From assembly GCA_026396415.1 (NCBI GenBank), contig JAPLWX010000004.1, forward strand, positions 1-63,176: a stretch of 63,176 bases of DNA, given 5' to 3'. How positions within the stretch are numbered: position 1 is the stretch's first letter; every line of letters begins with the position of its first letter. This stretch comes from Microcaldota archaeon. GTDB lineage: Archaea; Micrarchaeota; Micrarchaeia; Anstonellales; Anstonellaceae. This document shows positions 8,296 to 38,439 of this stretch, piece after piece. The notes beneath the pieces are model-generated. The model saw only the letters and a program-made list of their open reading frames with translations. It had not been told where the DNA came from and did not search any database. The position numbers and the translations under genes are program-made.

Positions 8296-11037
8296 CTACC
8301 TGTATCTCAGGAAAGCCCCTATCCCATAAAAACTGCCAAGGAACTGCGCGCCCTCCGCGGTGTCGGGCGAGACCACGAAGATGTCGATGCCCTGCCTGTC
8401 TGCAAGTGAGATTAAATCGTCCACCAATGAGACTTCAGACTCCACCTTCACCGTGCCGCCGATTGCCTTTATTTTTTCTGCCAGGTCAAAGGGGGTTTTC
8501 GAGGTGACATACTGCGCCTCGAGAGTGGTGGTGTCCACAAGCTTTGCGCGCTTGTAGGCGACGCCTTCGGAAATCAGAAGCTCCTTTGCCTGCTTGGACT
8601 CGAGCGCTTTCCTTACTTCAGCCTCGCCGTATGTGGCAAGCCCGCCTGCCACCACTTCTTTTATGAACCTCTCGACAATCACGCGCTCGCGTATGGCCTG
8701 CTGCTCCGAGAGGATGTCGGTGGACTTTGCCATCACTTCCCGCACGCCGTATTCGTCTGTGTAGCCCGTGTCCACCACGCCCAGCACCTTTATCTGGTAG
8801 TTGAAAGGCGACATCTTGAAAAAATCGTCCTTTGCAGGCCCTGGCCCGCCGATTATCACGCCCTTCACGCTGTTGACAAAGTACTTGTCCATGTATTCGC
8901 CGATGCGCTTGTAGTAAAGCTCGATGGATTCCTCTATCAGCCGCTCGTACCTGCGCGCGCTGTTGTGCACGATGAAGCCGTTTGCCACGAAGTTGAATGC
9001 GTTTGGCACCGTCAAATCCACGTATTCGCGCTCGCCGGTGATTGGTATTTTTTCCGCCACGCGCGCAACCCCGATGTCGTTTGAGAGCCACTTTGCAAGC
9101 ACCTTTCGGGCAATCCCCTCTTTGCCAAGCGTGCGTGCGCGGGAAAGCAGCACGCCTTCGATATTCTTCCTGAATGCCGCCCGCCCGAGCGGTTTTTTGT
9201 TCCTGAAGAAATTGCTTGCCGCGTGGAAGTCGCTTGTGGAAAGCCCGAGCGAACGGGCAAATGCAAACACTTCCCTGCCGTCAACCGGCACCTGCTCCAC
9301 AAACTGCATCTTCACTTCCCTGTGCATGATATCCTGCAAAGCATCCGACTTGTCTTTCCTTGAAAAGCCTATTTCCGATGAAAAGATGGCCAATGAGGCG
9401 GAATCTGAAATGCTTGTGCACCACTGCGGGTTGCCAGCCACCGTCTTTTGCGAAAATGATGCGCGGATGCCGAAGCGCAGGAGAATGGACTGAACCTGGC
9501 GCATCATCTTTTCCGAGCGCATTGCGATTTCCACGCGCTTCCCGTGTAGGTAGCCCTCAGCATCGTAAAGCCCCGAGAGGAAGGCGGCCTGGACCTGGAG
9601 AGGGGAGCACTGTATCTGCACAGGCACGCATCTTTCGTCTGATGCCGCGAGGATTTGCGGCACTTCGCCTGCCACGAAATCCGCAAACTCCTTGCTGTAA
9701 ATGCGCAGTTCGTAATAGGGCTTCTTTGCAAACGAGCCTTTCTGCCCTGTCTTGTCCACCTTGCGGCAGACCGCAATTATCCCGACCGCGTCCAGCACCG
9801 CCCGGGAATATTTTTCAACCATCTGGTTGTAGCTTTCGTAAATTATTACCCTGTTCCCATCCAGCGTGCCGTCACCCGCTATTACTCCGAGAAGATAGGC
9901 AAGCCGCGGCGTGTAGGTGGCGGGAAGCTTAAGCGCAGGCGCTGCAAACTTCTTTTCGTCGAGCTTGAGGCCATAAAGTGCATACATCTGCCTGATCTTT
10001 CCAGCAGAAAGTGGAATTTCCCCCCGCTCCATCCTGCAGATTGCCATCTGCGTGATGCCGAGTTTTTTTGCCACTTTTGACTGCGGCCAGCCAAGCTCGC
10101 TTCTGCGGAAGCGCAGGCTTTCATATTCCCCCTCGTCAAGCGAAATTCTCGTTTCAGGCTTGTACCTGATTTCCACGTCTTTGCCATCGTGGTGGATTTT
10201 TTTGGCAACCAGCACCCTGTCGCCAATTTTCAGGTCTTTTGCATATGTTTCCCGCACGCCATTTTCCCCGATTGTGAAAAACCTGTGCCACGCCGTTGCA
10301 ACTATTTCCATTTTCGGCGCATGTGCCACTATTTTGTAGGCACTTTTGGAGCGAGTTTCAAACCGGTCTGAGCATTGCCAGTCGCCTATCGAAAATTCCG
10401 AGAGATCCGCTCCTTTCAGGTGCGAACCAGCGGCGACATCGCCCACTCTCGCAAGCGTGCCGTCTGACATCTGCACCATAGTATCGGGAGCAAGGCACTG
10501 CCCGCCTTTTCGTATTTTTGCATGCGCGGTGGAATTCAGGCGATGAAGTATGCGCGTGTTGGTGCCGCGAAGCTCGGCAAGCGTGCATTCGCGCCCGTCA
10601 AGGACTACGAGCCCGTATGAGTCCGTTACCTCCAATGTGCGCTCAAGGGGCTCCAGGAAAAAGCGCGAGTCGCATCGGTAAATCTGCACCATGATCGGCT
10701 CGGGAGGATAGATGGTGAAAAGCTCGATGACCACCTTTGCCGGGTTGTCAGATACATTGCCGCAGAAAATTGCAACTCCTGAGTGCGGAGCGACATTTCC
10801 GTAGCTTTTAAGATGATGCAAAATCCTCTCAAGCGCATCCACCACGTTCTTTCTCGTGCCTTTGCTTTTGATGTTGGTCGCCTGGCCTGCCTCGCCGCGC
10901 AGCTTGTTTGAGGTCTCATGTATTGCTTGCTCTGACGGAATGTACACTGAAATAAGCTCGGTGCCTGAGCCTTTCATTGCCTTGAGGTGCGCAAGCTGCT
11001 TTTTCAGCTCGTACTTGAGTTTTGTCTTTTCTTCCAT
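8296..11037 (-). CDS. prf1: archaeal peptide chain release factor aRF1 containing an intein
   Basis: N-extein ...IVSVYIPSE-like (ELISVYIPSEQ), TNIKSKGTRKNVVDAL, ending AHAKIRKGGQ; C-extein SARRYERLIEESIELYYKRIGEYMD...VIIGGPGPAKDDFF. Confidence 0.93.
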   Translation of the reverse strand: MEEKTKLKYELKKQLAHLKAMKGSGTELISVYIPSEQAIHETSNKLRGEAGQATNIKSKGTRKNVVDALERILHHLKSYGNVAPHSGVAIFCGNVSDNPAKVVIELFTIYPPEPIMVQIYRCDSRFFLEPLERTLEVTDSYGLVVLDGRECTLAELRGTNTRILHRLNSTAHAKIRKGGQCLAPDTMVQMSDGTLARVGDVAAGSHLKGADLSEFSIGDWQCSDRFETRSKSAYKIVAHAPKMEIVATAWHRFFTIGENGVRETYAKDLKIGDRVLVAKKIHHDGKDVEIRYKPETRISLDEGEYESLRFRRSELGWPQSKVAKKLGITQMAICRMERGEIPLSAGKIRQMYALYGLKLDEKKFAAPALKLPATYTPRLAYLLGVIAGDGTLDGNRVIIYESYNQMVEKYSRAVLDAVGIIAVCRKVDKTGQKGSFAKKPYYELRIYSKEFADFVAGEVPQILAASDERCVPVQIQCSPLQVQAAFLSGLYDAEGYLHGKRVEIAMRSEKMMRQVQSILLRFGIRASFSQKTVAGNPQWCTSISDSASLAIFSSEIGFSRKDKSDALQDIMHREVKMQFVEQVPVDGREVFAFARSLGLSTSDFHAASNFFRNKKPLGRAAFRKNIEGVLLSRARTLGKEGIARKVLAKWLSNDIGVARVAEKIPITGEREYVDLTVPNAFNFVANGFIVHNSARRYERLIEESIELYYKRIGEYMDKYFVNSVKGVIIGGPGPAKDDFFKMSPFNYQIKVLGVVDTGYTDEYGVREVMAKSTDILSEQQAIRERVIVERFIKEVVAGGLATYGEAEVRKALESKQAKELLISEGVAYKRAKLVDTTTLEAQYVTSKTPFDLAEKIKAIGGTVKVESEVSLVDDLISLADRQGIDIFVVSPDTAEGAQFLGSFYGIGAFLRYR
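8962..10497 (-). mobile_element. intein (512 aa) with LAGLIDADG endonuclease, inserted directly after aRF1 GGQ
   Basis: Starts CLAPDTMVQMSDGTLARVGDV, ends NFVANGFIVHN followed by Ser+1; DOD motifs LAYLLGVIAGDGTL and FLSGLYDAEGYL; extra HTH-like segment. Confidence 0.92.
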
Positions 11038-33207: not shown

Positions 33208-34193
33208 ATCTATTCAAACGCTTTTTTCAAAAGCGGATCGGTGATTTCGTAATCCTTCGCCTTGTCGATGAATTCGACCGAAGGCGCCCCGCTGCAAGCA
33301 GCGGGGTATCATCGCCATTCGGTCGAAATATTGCCAACTTCGCTCCGCTGCAAGCAGCGGAGTATCGCTCAGTTGGCAATGAACTCGTGGCTGGAAAGCG
33401 TGTTGAGGTAATCGGCGAGCTGGCTGTCAGACACCTTAAACCCGAGCTTGCGCTCAAGCGCGGCTTTTACCTGCGACCACGAGCGCGCGCCGGTGGCAAT
33501 TGCATTCATTATAGCGGCGTATTTCTTTTTTGCCTTTTTTGACGAAAGGAAACGTTCAACTTCACTGCGCGTGAGAAGGACACCTTGGCGCACAGCCTCG
33601 GCCAGCGCTTTTTGGTGCGCCATGCCGCGCCTTTGCCAGCCATAGAGAGTGAGCCAGCCTATTATCCCGCCAAGATTGCCGATTGCATCGGATATTTCTT
33701 CATCGGTTATGCGGGCGCCTGCGCCTTTGGCTCCAAGCCTGAGGAAACTTCGCCCCTCCCTCGGATTAGGCGTGTTGTCCGGACCGTTTCAATCGCGCGC
33801 CCGAAAAGAGGGCTGTCTGCATCGTCCCTGCCAAGGAACCTATGCAAAAGCCCTTGCCTCCGAGCCTGAAACAAGGAGCTTGATGCCCTTCTCGTTGTCG
33901 TAGAGATAGGCGAGGAAGCCGGCAAGCCCGAACTGGGAAAGCGCCTGTGCCTCGCCTATCGCCAAAATGAAGTGCTTGCCCTTCAATTGCGATGTGATTT
34001 CATCCTGGCTTCCAAACTCAAGCCGCGCGCCAAGCTCCACCGCCGAAAGCTTCACCCCGCCAAGCGCGCCTGATGCCCCTATGGAAAGTTTTTTGAAAAA
34101 ATCTGCCTTCCCCTCCACCGCCCTGCAAACATATTCCATCAGGTGCAAGCGCAAGCTACTTCCTCTCTCCATATTCCTGCGTGAAGGAAACAT
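33208..34193 (-). pseudogene. archaeal AAA ATPase, truncated, frameshifted and interrupted by a twin-hairpin insertion
   Basis: FILAIGEAQALSQFGLAGFLAYLYDNEKGIKLLVSGSEA... / LHRFLGRDDADSPLFGRAIETVRTTRL... / MAHQKALAEAVRQG...LADYLNTLSSHEFIAN, then after hairpins SVEFIDKAKDYEITDPLLKKAFE stop. Confidence 0.7.
33268..33382. repeat. two adjacent hairpins with shared core CCGCTGCAAGCAGCGG
   Basis: ATTCGACCGAA...CCCCGCTGCAAGCAGCGGGGTATC...TTCGGTCGAAAT and ATTGCCAACT...CTCCGCTGCAAGCAGCGGAGTATCGCTC...AGTTGGCAAT. Confidence 0.88.
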
Positions 34194-37100
34194 ACTCCTT
34201 CAGGTCCTTGCCTGTGATGGAGGGCCGCCTGGTGCCAACCACATCAAGCACCGAGTCCGTTGTCACATCGGTTGGCTTGCCCTTCAGCTTTTGGCGGACC
34301 AGCTCCATTTTCACTTCCTGGCAGATGGAGGCGATGTCCGCGCCTGAGAAGCCGTCGGTTGCCGCTGCAAGCCTGTCCAGGTTCACGTTCTTGAGGAACT
34401 TGGCAAGCCCGAGCGCAAACACCTGCTTCCTTGCAGGGACGTCGGGCGGGGGTATGTATAATATCTTGTCAAACCTGCCAGGGCGCAGGATTGCCGCGTC
34501 AAGCGCAAATGGCTTGTTCGTGGCGCCCACTATCATCACATTCTTCAGCTCCTTCACTCCGTCCAGTTCCTGGAGGAGCTCGGTGAGTATGCCGCCGCGG
34601 TACTCGTCGCGGCTGGGGGCAAGCGCCTCTATCTCGTCAATGAATACAAGGGCAGGCGCGCTCTCCCGCGCGCGGTTGAAGACCTCCTTCACGTAGGCGG
34701 ATGGCGTCTTGTCGCGGCTTTTCATGAGCTCGGAGCCGGAAATGGTAAGGAAATTGGCATTGAGCTCGTTTGCAGCCGCCTTCACTATCATGGTCTTTCC
34801 GCAGCCAGGCGGGCCATAAAGCAGCAGCCCCTTGCTTGGCTTGACATCCATCTCTTTCATGAGGTCCTCATGCAGGAGCGGGATTTCAATGGACTCGAGA
34901 AGCACGCGGCGAACCTCGGAAAGCCCTGCCACATCCTCCCAGCGCACGCCCTTTTCCTCGGGTTTTTTCTCCACTGCATCGCTCCTCCGCTCGAAGTCCA
35001 TGCGGAAGCGCTCGTAGTTCTCAAGGGAATCGAGCGAGTTTGACGGCTTGACGCGCTTTATTATGTTTGTAAGGTGCGCCATGGAGATTTTGACCACCGT
35101 TTGCGCACTCATTGCCTCGCGCGCAGCGAGCCGCGACGCCTCGGTCACGATGTTTTTTATGTCCGCGCCAGAATAGCGCTCCGTGATTGCGGCAAGCCTG
35201 CCATAGTCTATGTCATCGGAAGAGGGCAGTTTCCTGAGGTTGACCTTGAAAATCGCCGCTCGCGCATCCTTGTCCGGCAGGTGCATGTATATTATCTTGT
35301 CAAACCTGCCCGGGCGCATGAGCGCAGGGTCGAGCTGGTCGGGCAGGTTGGTGGCGCCCACGAATATCACTGGCTTTTTCGAATTGGGGGTAAACCCGTC
35401 CAGCTCCTGCAGGAGCACGCTCATCACGCGCGGGGCAACATCATCGCTTGTGTAGGAATCGCGCTTCTTGCCGATTGAGTCTATTTCATCGAAGAACAGC
35501 AGGAAGGGCGCGCCCTTGCGGGCGATTGAGAATACCTCGGACAGGTTCTTTTCCGAGTTGTGCGCGAAAATCCCGCCAAAGCCGCCTGCGAAATTTTGGC
35601 ACGGCTCGACTGAAATGTCAAAGACGAATTCCTCATCCGCAACGCGCGTTATCCCCTCCACACGGTCCCAATGGAGGTCGTTTGAAACTGCTGAATATGC
35701 GGCATCGTCGCCGGCTTCGGCGGCAAGCGAGGAGAGCATGCCTGCCCCTATTGTGGCGCAGTTGCAATGGTTTGGCGCATGCTGGGAAACAAAGCCCCCC
35801 ATTGCGCCGCTTATCGGTATCTGCCTGCCGCGGTGCCAGTTGCCGCGCGAGGCGCATCTCTCAAGCCGCCCCTGTTTTTCAGCGAATGTGAAGCCTATGC
35901 GGCATGCAAATGCACGCAGTTGCTCGCCTGCCATGCATATCCTGTGCGCGGGCAGCCCGTGCTTTTCAGTCTTGCTATACACGGTGGCGACGATTCCGAA
36001 TCGCAGCAGAAGGTAAAGGAGCTGGTCCGCAAGCTGCCCACTCACCGTGCCGGCCTCAATGGTGCCAAAGCCCTTCTGGTTGGCATAAATACTTCCGTCG
36101 CCGGAGAAATAGCCGCGCAGGAAAGAGGAAAGGTTGCGCTCGGACAGGTTGAATGCGATTGCAGGCGCTTTCTTCTTCACAGCGCCATCATCCAGCCCGA
36201 GGCAGTGGCGCATCAGCACATAAAGCGCACGCGAGCCTATGTAGATGTCGCGGCCATGGCACTCCTTGGCGCTTGCGCTGCCACCGGCATCAGAGCTGCC
36301 ATCGGAGCCCGCGCTGCCATTTGTGCCGGCGCTGTTTTTCTTTTTGTAGATTGTGGCGCTGCCGAAAAGCCTTTGGCAGAGTTGCGACACCTGTGCAACC
36401 TCTTTGTCGGAAGTGCTTATCCTGACGGTGTGCCCTGCGTTGTAGCTTCCCTCGGCAACCCAAAGGCCTAGGAAAAGCGCAAAATCCTCATTTATTGCAA
36501 TTTCCCCGGCAAGCCCGTTCTTCCCGGCAAAAACCTCCACGCCTGCCGCATCAAACTCCACGCCAGCCTCTTCCATAAGGCGGAGGAAGCGGCCCGCGCG
36601 CACGCCTATGTTTTGCCGCAGCACCTGCTTGAGGTACGCAGTGCGCCTGATGCCAAGGATTGCGCATGCTTTCTTTTCTCCCAGCGCAGCCACCGCATTT
36701 TCAAGAAGCAGCCGCGCACCCCTCACCTTCAGCCTGAAATCATTTTCGCGCAGCAGGCGCAGGAACTCCAGCTTTTCCACAGGCAATGAGGGCGCGGGAA
36801 TTCTGGATGGGATTGCGATATGCGAAACGCCTGCGACAAGCTCGGACGTCTTCACGCTTTTCACGGTGTAGCCGTCCAGCGTGAAAAGCGAGTGGTAGCC
36901 TGTGACTCTGATGCGCCTGCCGGTGCGCGTGCGCACCTCGTAAATTGGGGAGGTGCATTTGTGCTTCATGTGCCCGCAGATATCCGCAAACACCGCCTTG
37001 CCATTTGCGTCAAACGAAAGCACTTTCGCGCGCATTTTCCCTTCCACCACCTTTCCGATTTCCTCAAGCCGGATGCGCCCCCCTTCCATGATGGTTATTT

Positions 37101-38439
37101 TTTCATCGTAGGGAAGGCTTTCCCCATACCATTGGGACAGCAGGTCCGAGCATTTCACATAGCGGAAACCGATGTCAAGCTCGTTTGCAAGCGCGCGCAT
37201 GAGCATGGTCTTTCCGGTTCCAGGCGGGCCGAAGAGAAGCACGCCCTTGGGCGGCTTGATGTTGTAGGCATAGGCGAACTCCGGCTTTTTCAGGGGGGTG
37301 ACGATGGCTTCGCGCAGCTCCCCCTTGACATCCTCATAGCCGCCCACCTGCTCAAGCGTGTCAGTGCCCGCATCCGAAAGCGAGGCGTCGCCGAACTTGG
37401 AAAATGCCTTCTGCTTCTGGCCCCGCTCCACTATCTTCTCGCGGGAAAGAGAAATGCCGTAGTGCTCCATTGCCGCGATGGCGCCGACCGATATTGCGCA
37501 GTAGACAAAGCCCATGGGCTCGACAGGATTCTTGAATGCCGGGGCAAGCAGGAAGTTCGTTATTGGCACGAGGAAAAGCGCGGATGATGCAATTGTCTGC
37601 TTGTACTTGTGGTTTATCTGCGCGGGAATCATGGCAACTGCAAAAAGCGCAACCGCCCATACCACTAGCTGGGCGAGCGCAAAGTCGGAGGCCAATAGCT
37701 TGATTGCATCGCCTGCAATCTTTTCAAGCGCCGGGGAGACAGGGCCAATTGACTTGCTAAAATCGAAAAGGGAAGCGAGCGAGCCTGCCGCGGCAGGCAC
37801 AATCTCCCCGATTTCCGCAGCGGGCTGCGCATTGTTCTGAAGCTCTGCCATGGCAGGCCCGTAGATGGCCTCGTAGTCATTCGAGATTGTGATGAACGAT
37901 GAGGTGGGGAGCAGCCAGATTGCCGAGAGCAGCAGGACAATGAAAATCGCAGGCAGGGAGACTGTGAAGCTGCTGCGGGAGCCGAAGCGCAGGGCGGCAA
38001 CGGCAAGCAGCAGGAACAGGAAGCCCGACACCATGGAGAATGGGAAGGGCGCGAAAGGGGCGAGCATGGCGATTTCAAGGAAGGAAATCACGCTCCAGTG
38101 CTCGAACGCCTCGAAAAGCGTGATTGCGATTGCAAGCGTGAACACCCAGGCGAGCACAGGCGCCTGGTAGGCAACTGCAGGGAGCGCGAAGAACATGCCG
38201 GCTATGGTTCCTCCGGGAGGGAACTTGTATGCAATCGCGCCCGAGAGCGCGGCAAGCGCGAATGATATGTATATCGGGTAGAACGGGAACGGGAGGAGGA
38301 GGAAAAGCGTGCCCAATGCGACAAGGAGCGCGTCGCCTATGTTGTCGTCCGTGCGCAGCATCTGCACCATGGCAAGCATGCGCTGCTTGCCCATGCTGCC
38401 TGTTGCAACAGACTGCTGCCCTGGAACTGCCCCGCCCAT
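34156..38439 (-). CDS. polytopic-membrane Cdc48/p97-like double AAA+ ATPase containing an intein
   Basis: Several N-terminal TM segments; LLFGPPGTGKTMLMRALANE and LLLYGPPGCGKTMIVKAAANE Walker A; FFDEIDSIGKKR and FIDEIEALAPSR Walker B. Confidence 0.9.
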   Translation of the reverse strand: MGGAVPGQQSVATGSMGKQRMLAMVQMLRTDDNIGDALLVALGTLFLLLPFPFYPIYISFALAALSGAIAYKFPPGGTIAGMFFALPAVAYQAPVLAWVFTLAIAITLFEAFEHWSVISFLEIAMLAPFAPFPFSMVSGFLFLLLAVAALRFGSRSSFTVSLPAIFIVLLLSAIWLLPTSSFITISNDYEAIYGPAMAELQNNAQPAAEIGEIVPAAAGSLASLFDFSKSIGPVSPALEKIAGDAIKLLASDFALAQLVVWAVALFAVAMIPAQINHKYKQTIASSALFLVPITNFLLAPAFKNPVEPMGFVYCAISVGAIAAMEHYGISLSREKIVERGQKQKAFSKFGDASLSDAGTDTLEQVGGYEDVKGELREAIVTPLKKPEFAYAYNIKPPKGVLLFGPPGTGKTMLMRALANELDIGFRYVKCSDLLSQWYGESLPYDEKITIMEGGRIRLEEIGKVVEGKMRAKVLSFDANGKAVFADICGHMKHKCTSPIYEVRTRTGRRIRVTGYHSLFTLDGYTVKSVKTSELVAGVSHIAIPSRIPAPSLPVEKLEFLRLLRENDFRLKVRGARLLLENAVAALGEKKACAILGIRRTAYLKQVLRQNIGVRAGRFLRLMEEAGVEFDAAGVEVFAGKNGLAGEIAINEDFALFLGLWVAEGSYNAGHTVRISTSDKEVAQVSQLCQRLFGSATIYKKKNSAGTNGSAGSDGSSDAGGSASAKECHGRDIYIGSRALYVLMRHCLGLDDGAVKKKAPAIAFNLSERNLSSFLRGYFSGDGSIYANQKGFGTIEAGTVSGQLADQLLYLLLRFGIVATVYSKTEKHGLPAHRICMAGEQLRAFACRIGFTFAEKQGRLERCASRGNWHRGRQIPISGAMGGFVSQHAPNHCNCATIGAGMLSSLAAEAGDDAAYSAVSNDLHWDRVEGITRVADEEFVFDISVEPCQNFAGGFGGIFAHNSEKNLSEVFSIARKGAPFLLFFDEIDSIGKKRDSYTSDDVAPRVMSVLLQELDGFTPNSKKPVIFVGATNLPDQLDPALMRPGRFDKIIYMHLPDKDARAAIFKVNLRKLPSSDDIDYGRLAAITERYSGADIKNIVTEASRLAAREAMSAQTVVKISMAHLTNIIKRVKPSNSLDSLENYERFRMDFERRSDAVEKKPEEKGVRWEDVAGLSEVRRVLLESIEIPLLHEDLMKEMDVKPSKGLLLYGPPGCGKTMIVKAAANELNANFLTISGSELMKSRDKTPSAYVKEVFNRARESAPALVFIDEIEALAPSRDEYRGGILTELLQELDGVKELKNVMIVGATNKPFALDAAILRPGRFDKILYIPPPDVPARKQVFALGLAKFLKNVNLDRLAAATDGFSGADIASICQEVKMELVRQKLKGKPTDVTTDSVLDVVGTRRPSITGKDLKEYVSFTQEYGERK
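35557..37119 (-). mobile_element. intein (521 aa) in AAA domain 1 (QWYGE/intein/SEKNL)
   Basis: Begins SLPYDEKITIMEGGRIRLEEIGKVVEG, ends GGIFAHN+S; LAGLIDADG-type motifs LFLGLWVAEGSY and FLRGYFSGDGSI. Confidence 0.9.

Follow-up and report, generated by a model that had tools for sequence, protein, structure and literature searches.

A canonical class 1 intein at the GGQ codon of the archaeal release factor aRF1

What interrupts the gene for peptide chain release factor 1 (aRF1) of a Microcaldota archaeon directly after the codons for the catalytic GGQ motif, and does this position tie the ending of translation to protein splicing? The gene lies in the window, meaning the whole 63,176-nucleotide stretch analyzed here (contig JAPLWX010000004.1), and forms a single open frame on the minus strand. 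Its match to TIGR03676 (aRF1_eRF1) of NCBIfam, at 383 bits (cut-off 234.7), is split into two parts by an insert. With the insert set aside, the three domains of aRF1, the NIKS motif, and the GGQ motif are all found by Pfam, NCBIfam, and reading of the sequence. The N-extein ends with ...AHAKIRKGGQ, the insert runs from CLAPDTMVQ to FVANGFIVHN, and the C-extein starts with SARRYERLIEE. The original prediction of an intein exactly at the GGQ of aRF1, with the junctions ...KIRKGGQ/C and HN/SARRYERL, is confirmed from the ORF, TIGR03676, and Pfam. The span given there applies to the whole gene, whereas the intein itself is shorter, as seen in the following features.

8296..11037, minus strand: aRF1 precursor gene, 913 amino acids, interrupted by the intein (ORF; TIGR03676; Pfam eRF1_1, eRF1_2, and eRF1_3)
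10498..11037, minus strand: N-extein, residues 1 to 180, with GGQ at its end (sequence)
10498..10506, minus strand: codons of the GGQ catalytic motif, residues 178 to 180, adjoining the intein (sequence)
8962..10497, minus strand: intein, residues 181 to 692, 512 amino acids, from Cys1 to His511-Asn512 (Pfam, sequence, AlphaFold, Foldseek)
10279..10296, minus strand: block B motif TAWHRF, with intein Thr68 and His71 (sequence, alignment)
9973..10116, minus strand: Cro/CI-type helix-turn-helix (HTH) (Pfam HTH_3, model helices, PDB sequence matches)
9868..9903, minus strand: first LAGLIDADG motif, LAYLLGVIAGDG, with catalytic Asp209 (Pfam, sequence, alignment)
9553..9582, minus strand: second LAGLIDADG motif, FLSGLYDAEG, with catalytic Glu314 (Pfam, sequence, alignment)
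8962..9024, minus strand: intein C-terminal blocks F and G, YVDLTVPNAFNFVANGFIVHN (TIGR01443 intein_Cterm, 23.9 bits against a cut-off of 15.6)
8296..8961, minus strand: C-extein from Ser693 (SARRYERL) and stop codon (ORF, sequence)

Within the insert, Pfam identifies Intein_splicing at precursor residues 203 to 692 (58.7 bits, cut-off 35.8), HTH_3 at 311 to 361 (E value, 7.1e-6), and LAGLIDADG_3 at 482 to 557 (79 bits, cut-off 22.5). All residues required for splicing are in place, namely Cys1, Thr68-x-x-His71, His511-Asn512, and the +1 serine, Ser693, which is part of the host protein. The endonuclease domain carries two LAGLIDADG motifs (GVIAGDG and GLYDAEG) with both catalytic acids, and the Cro/CI-type HTH, for which the PDB sequence matches are MBF and the P22 C2 repressor, separates the splicing domain from the endonuclease. 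Alignment of 34 aRF1 inteins shows no variation at Cys1, His71, Glu314, His511, and Asn512; Asp209 is kept in 32 of 34, and block B has its histidine in all 34, with threonine or serine at its first position. The +1 residue is serine at all 65 complete junctions read, although the search pattern itself demanded serine. A histidine is often found in block F of inteins; the corresponding position in the window is Phe501, which varies among relatives, and this histidine is not treated here as defining an intein. The insert is in frame, lies in a conserved host, and is missing from close relatives; it has a nucleophile at position 1, a C-terminal asparagine, a +1 serine, a block B TxxH motif, and a Hint fold. 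These features identify it as a canonical class 1 (Cys1) intein that is predicted to splice. It cannot be a product of chance or mis-assembly, because intein-free relatives read KIRKGGQSARRYERL unbroken and many independent assemblies carry the insert at the same codon.

AlphaFold models of the intein alone (pLDDT, 93.6; pTM, 0.91) and of the precursor (pLDDT, 86.8) point to a fold of the VMA type. The sole segment of the precursor model below 50 is a loop (residues 173 to 176) just N-terminal of the junction. Among solved structures, Foldseek ranks the Tli VMA intein first (7qss; E value, 2.5e-27), and profile matches in the PDB are 1dq3 and 7qsu. The VMA-type LAGLIDADG inteins (Tli/Pho VMA, 7qss, 7qsu, and 7qst; PI-PfuI, 1dq3; PI-SceI, 1vde) likewise consist of a Hint domain with an inserted two-motif LAGLIDADG endonuclease, and VMA inteins, too, are inserted at a host catalytic site (PMC2814812). 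The aRF1 intein differs from them in its low identity (12 to 19%), in the additional HTH, and in its host, which is a translation release factor rather than an ATPase or replication protein. Bacterial intein-like domains are found in non-conserved parts of variable proteins (PMC2814812), a placement unlike that of the aRF1 insert at the catalytic GGQ. Inteins favor conserved sites, often the catalytic center (PMC2814812), and the GGQ location is therefore the expected one for an intein.

Following established intein chemistry, from which the splicing steps are inferred, a 913-residue precursor would be made first. The Hint domain would activate the Gln180-Cys181 bond for an N-S acyl shift by Cys1, the chain would then be transferred to Ser693, and cyclization of Asn692 would yield a 401-residue aRF1 with a continuous GGQ-S loop. 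With some 500 residues sitting on the loop that has to enter the peptidyl transferase center, precursor that has not been spliced should not support peptide release. That splicing is required before termination is a sound inference from this anatomy, and the reaction most likely proceeds fast and constitutively. The genome also encodes a candidate aRF1 glutamine methyltransferase (TIGR00537, an archaeal HemK-related family taken here as such; 149.5 bits, cut-off 87), of which Gln180 would be the target, presumably after splicing.

The dependence of the host on this gene was assessed in its genome assembly (1.74 Mb in 52 contigs, 92% complete). A second, intein-free prf1, looked for as the finding that would speak against the original prediction, was not found in this 92% complete genome by profile search with TIGR03676. 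The remaining matches of the profile, on contig C13, were rejected as a second aRF1, being two weak stretches in one pelota-like frame of 350 residues. About eight inteins are present in the genome, including a second one in the window (about 35557 to 37077), which lies soon after the first Walker A region of a CDC48-family AAA ATPase gene (34156 to 38439, minus strand). Apart from the aRF1 and CDC48 inteins, they are located on contigs C27, C24, C49, C41, and C22 (L039 to L043). Hosts other than aRF1 are GyrA, GyrB, RNAP A'', Top6A, CDC48, the 2-oxoacid oxidoreductase beta subunit, and one further protein; the names were assigned from reading of the sequences, except for CDC48, which came from NCBIfam. 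These archaeal inteins are elements of the same kind with other hosts and insertion sites.

The distribution of the insert was determined by searching whole genomes with TIGR03676 and reading those matches that break at position 174 (GGQ). The insert is present in 10 of 84 genomes of the order to which the window belongs, in 17 of the 262 Micrarchaeota genomes with an aRF1 match, and in 24 of 140 Aenigmatarchaeota genomes. The intein profile, run against a single genome for each species, retrieved about 30 more loci at the same codon, mostly in DPANN archaea, from Iainarchaeota/Diapherotrites, Woesearchaeota, Pacearchaeota, Nanoarchaeota, and Nitrososphaerota (Nitrososphaerales). A few loci annotated as bacterial are probably mis-binned archaeal contigs. 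In total, roughly 70 other archaeal genomes carry an intein at this aRF1 codon, among them the complete genome of the more distant relative “Candidatus Fermentimicrarchaeum limneticum” Sv326 (CP058998.1). Presence is sporadic, even inside a genus, and close relatives include intein-free alleles. One apparent split intein (G011), with halves on two contigs, was dismissed as an assembly break, since both frames reach the contig end; this genome is counted among the 17 Micrarchaeota.

Most aRF1 inteins retain an intact endonuclease and the HTH. Eight mini-inteins of 134 to 157 residues (G097, G295, G337, G354, G376, G415, G430, and G432) lack the endonuclease, and the HTH is absent from these as well as from L067, L084, and G055. 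The G055 intein has also lost both LAGLIDADG acids (GGG and DARG) and keeps its splice residues, a sequence that shows decay under way.

Trees of inteins and exteins conflict across 43 pairs. The Aenigmatarchaeota exteins form one group, and their inteins fall into two distant clades; the host L084 belongs to Iainarchaeota, and its intein belongs to the Woesearchaeota/Nanoarchaeota clade. A single clade of Aenigmatarchaeota inteins is rejected (p-AU, 3.4e-4), as are the joining of the L084 intein to those of other Iainarchaeota (p-AU, 0.03) and of its extein to Woesearchaeota/Nanoarchaeota (p-AU, 7e-7), these values being indicative, as the groups were partly defined post hoc with the trees already seen. 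On the Aenigmatarchaeota aRF1 tree, the presence or absence of the intein requires at least 15 changes. In the pair nearest to the window, vertical descent is compatible with the extein tree (p-AU, 0.19), and sideways transfer into L048 (G063), a member of the clade of the window, is only suggested. The disagreement between intein and host trees shows that the element has spread horizontally and indicates that it moves by homing. A viral origin was set aside, as viral contigs gave only remote matches to the intein profile, whose identity over long stretches did not exceed 30%. The codon for the +1 serine (on the 8937-8961 side of the window) is AGC in the window and TCN in all eight members of the family without an intein that were compared at first. 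Among relatives, AGN is used by 6 of 9 that carry the intein and by 8 of 31 that lack it, an association too weak (p = 0.04, in a comparison picked post hoc) to keep co-conversion of the flank as an explanation.

Sporadic presence, an endonuclease, tree conflict, and endonuclease-less relics together make the pattern expected of a homing intein. Colonization of the codon after GGQ by a canonical class 1 homing intein is very probably the explanation of the locus: the LAGLIDADG domain, probably aided by the HTH, would cut intein-free aRF1 genes, into which the element would then be copied. The horizontal spread supports such cutting indirectly. The replacement of the block F histidine, together with the decay known at this site from G055, could instead be read as signs of a decayed domain that does not splice or of a bacterial-intein-like one, the gene being dead or giving two cleaved pieces. 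This is highly improbable, given that the frame is open, that the splicing nucleophiles are all intact and conserved, with the splice residues kept even in G055, and that the gene, whose function is essential, is the sole aRF1 detected at 92% genome completeness.

The insertion of the intein into the catalytic loop, in a gene that is apparently single-copy, lends some appeal to another reading, in which it has been retained as a conditional switch: stress (redox via Cys1, temperature, or metal) would delay splicing, and termination capacity would follow. Other inteins are known to splice conditionally (PMC5874633), including that of mycobacterial DnaB (PMC6195587), and the persistence of the eight mini-inteins implies that an intein can outlast the homing drive at this site. 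Yet these mini-inteins are equally explained by the difficulty of removing an insertion from a catalytic motif (PMC2814812), the intact endonuclease of most members suffices to account for presence, and sporadic occurrence even inside a genus suggests that no lineage relies on the intein. We consider such a switch improbable in the window. The same low likelihood attaches to its extension to DPANN archaea at large, in which slow or condition-dependent splicing would govern how much active release factor is available, and thereby the extent of proteome-wide stop-codon readthrough, the mini-inteins being domesticated switches. The idea of a special regulatory device in the original prediction is not borne out by an element that is widespread at the site and has the pattern of a homing intein. 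Wide occurrence of inteins at this site had been named as a finding that would speak against the original prediction, and the sequence data show it, although it seems to have gone unreported.

The survey also brought to light variation in the motif next to the insertion site. GGQ has been described as universally conserved (PMC7708063), and it is present in every aRF1 read outside Aenigmatarchaeota. Among the first 55 Aenigmatarchaeota genes tabulated, the motif is GGQ in 19, GGW (TGG codon) in 27, and GGM (ATG codon) in 9, so that 36 of 55 are non-GGQ, both with and without an intein; G337 adds one more GGM. Examples are KGGMSQKRY (L118), KGGWSQARY (L120), KGGMSQRRY (L103), and a GGW that precedes an intein (L089). 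The NIKS-type stop-recognition motif is retained in almost all Aenigmatarchaeota aRF1 proteins checked, and a second full aRF1 was not found in any of the Aenigmatarchaeota genomes examined. TIGR00537 scores above its cut-off in 15 of 19 genomes with GGQ versus 0 of 36 with GGW or GGM (Fisher p = 3e-10), an association confined to a handful of lineages by the few independent changes on the tree (just one to three phylogenetically independent pairs).

The host part of the window protein has the three domains and the NIKS and GGQ motifs of the aRF1/eRF1 release factors, and no intein in this family was found in the open-access papers searched. This agrees with the original prediction that no aRF1 GGQ intein had been characterized, and aRF1 appears to be an undescribed host and insertion site for a known kind of element. 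A survey that counts DPANN archaea separately included only two DPANN genomes, with one intein (PMC10643990). With this element, a translation release factor joins the list of intein hosts, and the fidelity of splicing at one codon would decide the ability to end translation. With full-size, decaying, and mini forms of the intein at that codon, the roughly 70 genomes are well suited to tests of homing and domestication, and surveying them has brought out a natural departure from the GGQ rule in Aenigmatarchaeota.
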